A DNA stretch of 64,000 bases from Pseudomonas sp. HOU2 (GTDB taxonomy: Bacteria > Pseudomonadota > Gammaproteobacteria > Pseudomonadales > Pseudomonadaceae), in NCBI RefSeq assembly GCF_040729435.1, contig NZ_CP160398.1, forward strand, positions 5,189,001 through 5,253,000, given 5' to 3'. The position numbers were made by a program, and so were the translations under genes. Numbering within the stretch: the first letter of the stretch is position 1; each line of letters starts with the position of its first letter. Below, in pieces: positions 32,524-35,911 of the stretch. The notes under the pieces were generated by a model that ran no database searches, had not been told where the DNA came from, and saw only the letters and a list, made by a program, of their open reading frames with translations.

Positions 32524-32931
32524 GCGTTTGGCCTTGGCGGCCTCTGGGCCGACCAGGCTGTTGGGTTCTGCGTGAATATCCGTTTCTTCGGGTGCTGCCG
32601 CTGACGGTTTCGCTCTTACAGCGAGTCCCTTTGGCAAACGCCCCAAAGGAACCAAAGGTCTGTGCCCTGACGTTCGGCCCGCTCGCTAAAGCTCGGGGTT
32701 CCTTCGCTCCGGGATCGATCCGGGCGCATCGCCTCCGGTTTGCTTCGCTGCACCTCCTCTCGATGTGTTCGACTTCGTCGAACGGTCGCTTCGCTCCCAC
32801 CCCCGGATCAATCCCTCCGCTCAGCCTGCCGACGGGCCGGTGAGTCAAGATCAAGAGCTTTCGGCGAGCTGACACTCGGCCATTTGAGTGGTGAAGAGCC
32901 TGCGGTCGGCTTTTGCTTTTCTGTAGGAGTG
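32524..32931. other. gene-free block of dispersed pseudomonad intergenic sequence
   Basis: No ORF here has convincing coding character. The block contains small palindromes such as GTTCGAC-TTC-GTCGAAC (32768-32784) and GGATCGATCC near 32711. I recall very similar GC-rich text (GGATCGATCCGGGCGCATCG and neighbours) scattered between genes of fluorescent pseudomonads, often annotated as false hypothetical proteins. It is best seen as a repeat, origin unknown. Confidence 0.5.
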
Positions 32932-33144
32932 AGCCTGCTCGCGATGGCGGCCTGAAAGCCGACCAATCACCAACTTCCTGCACTCAATCCAACTGTGGGA
33001 GCTGGCCTGCCAGTGGTGGTGACCTCTCAGCCGACCAATCTCCAACAGCCCACACCCAATCCACTGTGGGAGCGAGCTTGCTCGCGAAGGCGGCCTGACA
33101 GCCGACCAATCTCCAACTGCCTGCACCCAATCCCACTGTGGGAG
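32932..33144. repeat. REP tandem array, left part
   Basis: TGTRGGAG starts at 32932, 32994, 33065 and 33137, giving steps of 62, 71 and 72 bp. Each unit has a REP palindrome (type A or B) plus a conserved tail with GCCGACCAATCTCCAAC. The fourth unit is cut after 8 bp by the insertion element and continues at 34322. Confidence 0.88.
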
Positions 33145-33151
33145 ATTCTAT

Positions 33152-33173
33152 GGTTGAGGGAAAGCCCTCAACC
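33152..33173. terminator. hairpin at the transposase 3' end
   Basis: GGTTGAGGG-AAAG-CCCTCAACC forms a 9-bp perfect stem that spans the transposase stop codon, 7 bp inside the right end of the element. There is no T tract. It may stop read-through or belong to the element end recognised in recombination. Confidence 0.5.
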
Positions 33174-34115
33174 GGCCTTCGGTTGATATTCGCTTTGCCC
33201 CTTGAGCAGAGCGAATACCACCCGCGCAAGCTTTCGAGCCAGTATCACCAGTGCCTGTGTCGTGCTGAAGCCTCGGGCTCTTTGCTCCTCGTAGAAGCCT
33301 TTCCAGGCTGGCGTACGACTGGCCGACATGGCTGCGTTATGCAGCAGTCGACGAGCTTCCGGATCTCCACGCTTGGTCAGGCTTCGGCGACCATCCTTCT
33401 GCCCCGACTGTGACACTCGTAAATCCATCCCCAAAAACGCGATGAATGCATCTGCATTCCTGAAATCACCCCGTTGAAACGCAACAATCAAACGGGCTCC
33501 AGTCAAAAAACCAACGCCTTCGACTTTCGTGCATCGCTTCAGTTGGGCAAGCAAACCGGCTTCTTTCAACTGCTCGTTGATCATCTTCTCGACCAATGTC
33601 TCAAGCCTCTGCATTGAAGCCACTTGCTCGGCAAACGCGCTTTTAAGCAGCGGCTCATTTTTCCAACTTTGCACCAAGCCAACGCGCGCCTGAACCAGCG
33701 CTGCGCGACGACGAAAAAGGCTCAAGAGTCGGCGATACAGCGGCGATGGCGGAATCCAGGGATGCAGTTCTTCGTATTCATTTTTCAGATAACGGGCAAG
33801 CAGTTTGGCGTCCAGCGCGTCGGTTTTAGCGCGAACATTCACTCCTTTGCGGTAATGACTCAGCTCGTAGCCACCGACCATGTAAATCGTGCACCCGGCT
33901 TCATGGGCCAGATCGGCGAACGCCAAGTGATAGATATTGGTCGATTCAATGGCCAGATCAACCGGTGCAGGCAAGGCTTTCAGCCATTTCTCGATCGCTG
34001 CCTTGTCATTGGAAATAGTCTCGAGCAGATCCAGCTCGGCCTGATAGATGACCAGCTCATTCTTGGCGACATCCACGCCCACGATTGGCTTGGAAACAGA
34101 AACCGACATTGCCAT
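33168..34115 (-). CDS. IS110-family transposase (DEDD recombinase)
   Basis: 315 aa. The N-terminal RuvC-like DEDD domain opens VGVDVAKNELVIYQ and has IESTNIYHLAFADL and VRAKTDALDAKLLARYL. The C-terminal Transposase_20 domain has VGFLTGARLIVAF and AMSASRTPAWKGFYEEQRARG, where the nucleophilic Ser of this family lies. It looks complete. GGGGGGTG precedes ATG 34115. The 204-nt region upstream inside the element encodes the predicted bridge RNA. Confidence 0.93.
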   Translation of the reverse strand: MAMSVSVSKPIVGVDVAKNELVIYQAELDLLETISNDKAAIEKWLKALPAPVDLAIESTNIYHLAFADLAHEAGCTIYMVGGYELSHYRKGVNVRAKTDALDAKLLARYLKNEYEELHPWIPPSPLYRRLLSLFRRRAALVQARVGLVQSWKNEPLLKSAFAEQVASMQRLETLVEKMINEQLKEAGLLAQLKRCTKVEGVGFLTGARLIVAFQRGDFRNADAFIAFLGMDLRVSQSGQKDGRRSLTKRGDPEARRLLHNAAMSASRTPAWKGFYEEQRARGFSTTQALVILARKLARVVFALLKGQSEYQPKAG

Positions 34116-34144
34116 TGAACACCCCCCGAGATATGGTTTTGAAC

Positions 34145-34308
34145 ACTTGAAGGGATCACCCAGGGGCGCAGGCTTGTTCCTATCGTCGGTCTAGCCAGAT
34201 GCATTCTTTATCGGCGCTTGGGTGAAAGGAGGAGGGGCGAAATCTCCCACGGATCTGTACTGCGTCAACAGTCAGAATCTGGCTTTGTCCCTCCTCCTCC
34301 CTTCAAGT
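34145..34308 (-). ncRNA. predicted IS110 bridge RNA (target and donor loops)
   Basis: ACTTGAAGGGA (34145-34155) pairs with 34298-34308 and encloses two stem-loops. The 5' loop (34228-34297, stem GGAGGAGGG/CCCTCCTCC) has a guide reading AAGCCAG (34279-34285 complement), equal to the REP left half next to the core CT, and a guide GTGGGAG (34244-34250 complement), complementary to CT plus CCCAC of the right half. The 3' loop (34156-34225, stem TCACCCA/TGGGTGA) has AGAAT (34203-34207), equal to the element right end, and ACAAG (34173-34177), complementary to CTTGT of the left end. This is the target/donor guide layout described for IS621. Confidence 0.82.
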
Positions 34309-34321
34309 CTCAGCATACAAG

Positions 34322-34558
34322 CTGGCTTGCCAGCGATGGTGGCCTGACAGCCGACCAATCTCTCACTGCCTGCACCCAATCTCTCTGTGGGAGCTGGCCT
34401 GCCAGTGATGGTGACCTCCCAGCCGACCAATCTCCAACTGCCTGCACTCAATCCAACTGTGGGAGCTGGCTTGCCAGCGATGGCGCCCTGACAGCCGACC
34501 AATCTCTAACAGGCTGCACACGGTCAAATGTGGGAGCGAGCCTGCTCGCGAAGGCGCC
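34322..34558. repeat. REP tandem array, right part
   Basis: It begins with the remaining 64 bp of the interrupted unit and continues with TGTGGGAG at 34386, 34458 and 34529 (steps 72 and 71). Units alternate between type A (CTGGCTTGCCAG) and type B (CGAGCCTGCTCG) palindromes with the common tail GCCGACCAATCTCYAAC. Confidence 0.88.
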
Positions 34559-34576
34559 CACACTGTCACTTCATCT

Positions 34577-35911
34577 CTACTTGCCCGCCCCGGCATTGGC
34601 ATACAAATAATCCGTCGCCAGCGACGCCATCGTCCTCACCCCAACCACCAGCGCCGACTCGTCCACAAAGAACCCCGGATTGTGATTCGGCGCCGCCTTG
34701 CTCATGTCCTGATCCCGTGGCGTCACCCCGAGGAACACAAACAGCCCCGGCACTTCCTTGGCAAAGAACGAGAAGTCTTCCGCGCCGCCCACCAGCGGTG
34801 CATTGACCACGTCATCCTTGGCTGCCCACTTCAACGTCGGCAGCATTTTTTCCGTCAGTGTCGGGTTGTTGATCGTAGGGTCGTATTTTTCGATGATGGT
34901 CACGTCGGCTTTCGCGCCGCCGCTTTCGGCGATTTTTTCGATGGTCTGGCGCACGTCGGCGTGGAGTTTCTGACGGATGCCGTAGTCGTAGGAGCGGATG
35001 GTGCCGCTCATGTCCACGGATTCGGGAATGATGTTGTAGCGAGTGCCGCCGTTGATGGTGCCGATGCTGACCACCGACGGATAGGATGAGATGTCGGTGC
35101 GGCGGCTGACCACGGTTTGCAGGCCGACGATGGTTTGTGCGCCGACGGTGATCGGGTCGATGCCGTCCCAGGGGCGGCCGGCGTGGGTTTGTTTGCCGAG
35201 GATTTTGATGCGCAGGTCGTCGGAGCTGGCCAGGGTGGCGCCTGGACGGTAGGCGATCTGGCCGGCGGGGACGCCGGCCCAGACGTGGAGGCCGAAGACG
35301 GCGTCGGGTTTGGGTGATTTCATCACGCCTTCTTCGACCATCATTTTCGCGCCCCAGGTGTTTTTGCCGTCGGGGATGAAGTCGCTCGGGCCTTCTTCGG
35401 CGGGCTGGAAGTAGAACACCACGGTGCCCGGCAGAGTGTCGCGCAAGCCTGTGAGAATTTTCGCCGTACTCAGCAGGATCGCGGTGTGGGCGTCGTGGCC
35501 GCAGGCGTGCATCACGTCGACTTCTTTGCCCAGATAGGTGCCTTTGGCTTTCGAGGCGAAGGGCAGGTCGGCGACTTCCTTGACCGGCAATGCGTCCATG
35601 TCGGCGCGCAGAGCCACGGTCGGGCCGGGCAGGGCGCCCTTGAGGATGGCGACCACGCCGGTGCGGGCGACGTTGGTTTTGACTTCCAGGCCCATCGCCT
35701 TCAGTTGTCTGGCGACCAGTTCCGCGGTGCGTGTCTCGGTGTTGCCCAGTTCCGGATGCGCGTGGATGTCGCGGCGGGTTTCCAGCAGTTGCGGTTCAAG
35801 TGCCTTGGCCTGCGTGGCGATCTGTTCGCGGGTGCTGTCCAGGGTGGCGGCGCTGGCGGTGCCGGCCAGCAGGGTGAGCAGAACGGTCTGGGCGATACGT
35901 GTCAGCTGCAT
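34577..35911 (-). CDS. exported M20 family amidohydrolase/peptidase
   Basis: 444 aa with signal peptide (LLTLLAGTASAA). M20D metal ligands are seen in HACGHDAHTAILL, PAEEGPSDF and VGGAEDFSFFAKEVPG, and the dimerisation domain in THAGRPWDGIDP. The family includes hippurate hydrolases, IAA-amino acid hydrolases and N-acyl-amino acid deacylases. Export to the periplasm is unusual for the best-known members but common in pseudomonads. It is a single gene between the REP array and the MscS gene; substrate unknown. Confidence 0.87.
   Translation of the reverse strand: MQLTRIAQTVLLTLLAGTASAATLDSTREQIATQAKALEPQLLETRRDIHAHPELGNTETRTAELVARQLKAMGLEVKTNVARTGVVAILKGALPGPTVALRADMDALPVKEVADLPFASKAKGTYLGKEVDVMHACGHDAHTAILLSTAKILTGLRDTLPGTVVFYFQPAEEGPSDFIPDGKNTWGAKMMVEEGVMKSPKPDAVFGLHVWAGVPAGQIAYRPGATLASSDDLRIKILGKQTHAGRPWDGIDPITVGAQTIVGLQTVVSRRTDISSYPSVVSIGTINGGTRYNIIPESVDMSGTIRSYDYGIRQKLHADVRQTIEKIAESGGAKADVTIIEKYDPTINNPTLTEKMLPTLKWAAKDDVVNAPLVGGAEDFSFFAKEVPGLFVFLGVTPRDQDMSKAAPNHNPGFFVDESALVVGVRTMASLATDYLYANAGAGK

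Follow-up and report, generated by a model that had tools for sequence, protein, structure and literature searches.

An IS110-group insertion sequence of Pseudomonas sp. HOU2 with a predicted bridge RNA whose guides agree with its REP target and its own ends

We analyzed a stretch of 64,000 nucleotides (the window) that lies in the 6.05-Mb one-contig chromosome of Pseudomonas sp. HOU2, and found an insertion sequence of the IS110 group that looks functional and whose leader very probably encodes a bridge RNA, with loops that would pair with the REP target and with the element's own joined ends. This reading draws on features present in the sequence, namely the anatomy of the element and its leader, the agreement of the guides with both target and donor, an agreement among relatives that goes beyond host composition, and the family and catalytic residues of the recombinase.

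The element, its recombinase and its insertion site

The element and its site consist of the following features:
33145..34319, minus strand: IS110-group element, CT core on either side, 1175 bp plus one core (junctions read in the sequence)
33168..34115, minus strand: DEDD/serine recombinase gene, 315 amino acids (open frame, domain and profile matches, catalytic residues)
34320..34321, minus strand: CT core of the left junction, which reads AAGCCAG-CT-TGTATGC
33143..33144, minus strand: CT core of the right junction, which reads ATAGAAT-CT-CCCAC
34322..34328, minus strand: left half of the REP target, AAGCCAG (read in the sequence)
33138..33142, minus strand: right half of the REP target, CCCAC (read in the sequence)

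On the minus strand, a REP is split by the element at the CT core, in the form AAGCCAG-CT-[TGTATGC ... ATAGAAT]-CT-CCCAC. The uninterrupted 14-mer that joins the two halves, AAGCCAGCTCCCAC, occurs 511 times genome-wide, and its reversed control does not occur (0). Only two full copies of the element are present in the HOU2 genome; the second shows no difference across the 1,173 bases that were searched (33145-34317), and its flanks are again AAGCCAG and CCCAC. A REP-pair array surrounds the element (window positions 32535-33108 and 34337-34501), with a 21-nt unit that appears seven times; five spacings of this unit are 71-72 nt or are broken only by the element.

The noncoding ends measure 204 nt upstream of the transposase gene, tnp (34116-34319), and 23 nt downstream of it (33145-33167). 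Under the rule that separates the IS110 and IS1111 groups by end lengths and RNA position (PMC11208160), this arrangement, in which the left end is long, the right end short and the RNA placed upstream of tnp, is that of the IS110 group.

The predicted protein matched PF01548 with 70.9 bits (cut-off 29) and PF02371 with 66.5 bits (cut-off 21.3), and has the RuvC-like DEDD domain and the Transposase_20 domain by which the IS110 family is recognized; the NCBIfam profile NF033542 ('IS110 family RNA-guided transposase') gave 170.1 bits (cut-off 140). Its solved relatives by sequence were only IS621 and ISCro4, with IS621 the best (E 6.7e-17). Given an inferred two-residue numbering offset, by which the PDB chain is taken as two ahead of the paper's IS621 numbering, E57, D99, D102 and S237 align with E60, D102, D105 and S241 of IS621. 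These four residues and D15, which together form the catalytic D, E, D, D, S set of the family, are invariant across 14 relatives; for D15, which falls outside the IS621 alignment, this invariance is the sole evidence. A plasmid search by protein yielded no close named element: 1,302 records matched, the best place in each with less than 60% identity, and the 15 listed had 27.9-29.8%. The recombinase (33168-34115) also matched the NCBIfam TIGR-Tas endonuclease weakly (30.9 bits, cut-off 100), which is consistent with a distant link between the two families.

Predicted bridge RNA and its guides

The leader upstream of the recombinase gene contains the following features:
34145..34308, minus strand: predicted bridge RNA, with a closing stem and two loops that would bind target and donor (fold z -4.42; a related leader is alike)
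34145-34155 and 34298-34308, minus strand: closing arms, 11 bp (read in the sequence)
34254-34262 with 34269-34276, minus strand: inner stem with one bulge (read in the sequence)
34279..34285, minus strand: left target guide (LTG), AAGCCAG (sequence; target agreement in relatives)
34244..34250, minus strand: right target guide (RTG), GTGGGAG, predicted to pair with CT+CCCAC (sequence; relatives)
34203..34207, minus strand: left donor guide (LDG), AGAAT (sequence; donor loops of relatives)
34173..34177, minus strand: right donor guide (RDG), ACAAG, predicted to pair with CT+TGT (sequence; donor loops of relatives)

The predicted fold of positions 34130-34325 (minus strand) comprises the closing stem and two stem-loops with a folding energy of -74.7 kcal/mol (z -4.42), and equal stability was reached in none of 200 shuffles. 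An earlier note on this DNA had described the closing arms, the two stem-loops and the inner 8-bp bulged stem, all of which we recovered in place. It had further read AAGCCAG as the REP bases left of the CT core, GTGGGAG as the complement of CT+CCCAC, AGAAT as the right end before CT and ACAAG as the complement of CT+TGT, and each of these readings was reproduced at the positions listed above. The two loops have the layout of a bridge RNA, in which LTG and LDG carry the sequence of the left top strands, and RTG and RDG complement the core and the right side. Extended to 7 nt, the left donor guide reads AAAGAAU, with one mismatch to the right end ATAGAAT.

We computed how often such guides arise in dinucleotide shuffles of the leader (163 nt, 34146-34308). 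Both target 7-mers appeared in order in 21 of 100,000 shuffles, both donor 5-mers in 1,949 of 100,000, and all four guides in 0 of 100,000, in line with the earlier claim that the four in order are unlikely by chance. Because the ordered pair arises this frequently, the donor 5-mers alone are weak evidence, and as their matches had been picked in the earlier note, the shuffle test applies to a named pattern. That note had also suggested fold and covariation over homologues as a check. In an element with 53% protein identity, the leader showed the same predicted fold (z -3.22), but the consensus fold of 31 leaders had double-sided changes in only 4 of 33 pairs, which is not strong covariation evidence. 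Rfam gave nothing at E up to 1 within 33000-34700.

For the mode of action, we infer transcription, the circle, its promoter, cleavage and strand exchange from IS621. By this analogy, the recombinase would excise the element in the form of a circle closed at CT, with the predicted junction ATAGAAT-CT-TGTATGC; the joined ends would create a promoter that drives the bridge RNA; and the RNA-protein complex would carry the circle to a REP of the form AAGCCAG-CT-CCCAC and recombine at CT. In related elements, the target guide differs in step with the occupied REP subtype. The predicted promoter at the circle junction is a weak match (TTTCCC-17-TATGCT).

Relation to known elements

The earlier note presented a REP-programmed IS110 element, read from the genome, as the new part. 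Its guides to the REP and to its own ends are upheld by fold, relatives and shuffles, but the novelty is not. IS621, the type example for bridge RNA recombination, targets REPs, which hold 144 of its 173 mapped E. coli insertion sites (PMC11208160), and in 2006 ISPpu9 (7/7), ISPpu10 (7/7) and ISPa11 (6/6) were reported in Pseudomonas REPs (PMC1525189). As stated in the caption to Extended Data Fig. 10 of PMC11208160 (2024), the boundaries of ISPpu10 and ISPa11 were inspected for loop pairing with targets and donors, and the guides are shown there; the same paper computed covariation over 5,511 target-RNA pairs, and the ISPa11 RNA was sequenced in PMC11187229. In light of these precedents (IS621, ISPpu9, ISPpu10 and ISPa11), RNA-guided IS110 elements that target REPs are already a known kind, and the general view of the IS110 mechanism is unchanged by the present one.

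The element is like IS621 in its recombinase family, in an RNA gene upstream of tnp, in the CT core, in a REP target and in two loops that each carry the left guide and then the right guide (PMC11208160, PMC11208158). Unlike in IS621, another REP sequence is targeted, RTG is 7 nt with the core (4 in IS621) and LTG is without the core C. The separate 5' stem-loop of IS621 (PMC11208160) is absent from the predicted folds of our leader and of the related one, in both of which the leader's 5' end is paired with its 3' end instead. ISPpu9 and ISPpu10 of P. putida, compared here by published description only, are likewise of the IS110 family, lie in Pseudomonas REPs and show a direct repeat of 2 bp, which in ISPpu9 is AG (PMC1525189, PMC8450116); ISPpu9 also has antisense and downstream small RNAs. 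RNA-guided REP targeting is shared with ISPa11 of P. aeruginosa (PMC11187229), which belongs to the IS1111 group and has its RNA downstream of tnp, in contrast to the upstream position in this element. In P. putida KT2440, orphan copies of the ssr9 of ISPpu9 are flanked by the element's end boxes and occupy non-REP sites (PMC8450116), and these may represent non-autonomous IS110 elements that consist of the RNA alone and have a different target.

What appears to be new beyond the known kind is a clear natural record, drawn from the sequences of relatives, of guides that differ with the REP subtype. No report of guides switching among REP subtypes was found in the titles and abstract openings of the open-licence literature, preprints aside. 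Since a genome has up to hundreds of near-identical REP sites of several subtypes, each insertion amounts to a natural choice test between guides. The pairing rules of bridge RNAs, such as positional wobble tolerance, are checkable against natural insertions, and the comparison yields a collection of recombinase-RNA pairs for which the targets are given.

Guides, REP subtypes and host repeats

Relatives were collected from 80 loci of named genomes, the HOU2 genome and 398 genomes of the genus, at least 56 of which had a match at E up to 1e-40 (at most 5 candidates were scored per genome); the part of the genus matches that was used comprised 30 loci and 109 fetched stretches. Among 241 protein hits, 29 failed end-finding or length, which left 212 elements with both ends; 26 with flanks identical to another row were removed to give 186, and 6 with an unparseable guide or N to give 180. 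The element ends were constant, with TGTATG in 180/180 and ATAGAAT in 178/180, the other two (L053 and L120) being mis-parsed right ends. However variable the left guide was among these elements, the target varied along with it: guide AAGGCTCG was found at AGGCTCG (36/47), AAAGCCCG at AAGCCCG (20/28), AAAGCTCG at AAGCTCG (14/19), AAAGCCAG at AAGCCAG (14/18) and TTAGTTCG at AAGTTCG (5/5, all from one genome). The right guide GTGGGAG was at CTCCCAC in 169 of 174 elements, at CTCCTAC in 4 and at CTCTCAC in 1, and GTAGGAG was at CTCCTAC in 6 of 6, from only two genomes.

The exact 7-nt LTG equaled the target in 86 of 180 elements, compared with a mean of 26.5 and a maximum of 42 in 5,000 shuffles, and by genome-guide group the agreement was 30/59, compared with 8.7 shuffled. 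Exact agreement fell with distance from this element: 17 of 18 groups agreed in the closest clade (at least 82% identity; 5.8 expected from shuffling, p 5e-5), 7 of 11 at 70-82% identity (p 0.06) and 6 of 30 below 70% (p 0.007). The proposition that homologous loops follow their own targets, on which the earlier note had staked its reading, was borne out in the closest clade; over all 180 elements exact agreement was under half, yet well above the shuffled level. The closest clade itself includes counter-examples, namely L023 (guide AAGCCAG at AGGCTCG), L054 (guide AAGCCCG at TTGGTAG) and the zanjan group, in which only 2 of 4 copies agreed. The recombinase tree (29 genes, at least 70% identity) requires at least 9 guide changes and at least 9 target changes; independent, well-supported pairs that differ in guide type number only 3, and their targets agree in 3/3 (p 0.25), too small a number for a test. 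Taken over all relatives, the guide varies with the target, more weakly at larger distance.

Distant relatives with 43-48% protein identity (L077, L080-L083 and L091) were found in Methyloversatilis genomes and a Nevskiaceae MAG; their sites are likewise REP-like and contain CT and either CCCAC or CCTAC. In Pseudomonas sp. DTU12.3 (L024 and L076), two copies of a 94% identical relative are adjacent and oppositely oriented, and each is flanked by REP half-sites of its own.

To control for the host, we tallied REPs of four classes across 44 genomes. Of the 79 elements whose guide belongs to one of these classes, seven lay in other sequences and were excluded; among the remaining 72, 58 copies were in the REP class of their guide, compared with 39.0 from host composition, and 0 of 200,000 simulations reached 58. 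With one copy per group, 18.0 of 24 were in the guide's class (12.05 expected, P 0.0025), and this became 21.2 compared with 14.1 (P 0.0002) when rG-dT at -6 was counted as a match. Copies whose guide was not of the host's commonest class were in their own class in 15 of 26 cases (6.4 expected, P 1e-4). HOU2 also has a second IS110 element, 52% identical, with guide AGACTCG, of which 6 copies are at AGGCTCG and 1 at AAGCTCG; all 7/7 are in a REP subtype other than that of the present element. AGGCTCG is the rarest of the four REP classes in HOU2 (5.7%), and the probability of at least 6 of 7 copies there is 2.4e-7; comparing the two HOU2 elements in a simple 2 x 2 Fisher test gave p 0.028.

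These comparisons bear on two other readings, both of which we consider very improbable. In one, the agreement comes from shared ancestry and host repeat make-up, in that the elements and REPs of one species resemble each other. The guide is indeed the host's commonest class in 14 of 24 genome-guide groups, and independent supported switches are as few as stated above; however, minority-class guides still reach their own class, and the one-copy-per-group test and the second HOU2 element argue against it as well. Host REP make-up as the sole cause is rejected on the host-composition and one-copy-per-group tests. In the other, the protein itself recognizes the REP, and the structured leader merely regulates translation, with incidental REP matches. 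The leader lies within the 5' untranslated region, and that of the ISPpu9 tnp hinders translation (PMC8450116), but guides and targets differ together among near relatives, two elements of one genome use different REP subtypes, and the four guides together were not reproduced by shuffling. Somewhat less improbable, though still unlikely, is that the anatomy is correct while this copy is just a silent remnant, unable to move any longer: a genome with just two full copies would fit such a remnant, but the identity of the two over 1,173 bases, the open frame and the retained catalytic residues would not.

Returning to the bridge RNA, we give even chances to a more specific proposal, in which LTG would be a fast-changing address that tracks the REP subtype, the two elements would divide the REPs between them, and a guide with G at -6 would be a generalist (through rG-dT) and one with A a specialist. 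If this is the case, retargeting and mismatch rules would be readable from genomes alone. IS621 is reported to tolerate an rG-dT pair (PMC11208160), and the signs of G-T wobble tolerance in natural guides are partial, in counts where same-genome copies may be non-independent. Guide AGGCTCG was at AAGCTCG (rG-dT) in 7/23 (5.5 expected if blind), and guide AAGCTCG was at AGGCTCG (rA-dC) in 0/14 (4.7 expected, P 0.001). Contrary to simple wobble, guide AAGCTCG at AAGCCCG (rU-dG) was depleted (3/17, 7.2 expected), and in 14 of 15 copies with guide AGACTCG an A faces C. Also at odds with such a rule, guide AAGCCAG at AAGCCCG (rA-dG) was not clearly depleted (3/12, 4.5 expected), and a longer guide, read as AAGCTCGT, was at AGGCTCG in 7/9. 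As AGACTCG mismatches AGGCTCG at one base, the choice of target does not need perfect pairing.

Donor loops also varied across the 180 elements, with unchanged element ends: the left guide was AGAAT in 109 and GGAAT in 63 (8 unparsed), and the right guide ACAAG in 132 and GCAAG in 43 (5 unparsed). The G forms, GGAAT and GCAAG, would pair with T by wobble.

At about 5724031-5724107 of HOU2, a left end of the second IS110 element is present without its transposase; it starts at the CT core and extends as far as the right target guide, GTGGGAG, where it joins a REP that likewise starts with GTGGGAG. The junction looks like a deletion between the guide DNA and a neighboring REP, by homology or by the recombinase. 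Among 398 genomes, only HOU2 itself has the exact guide-REP junction pattern.
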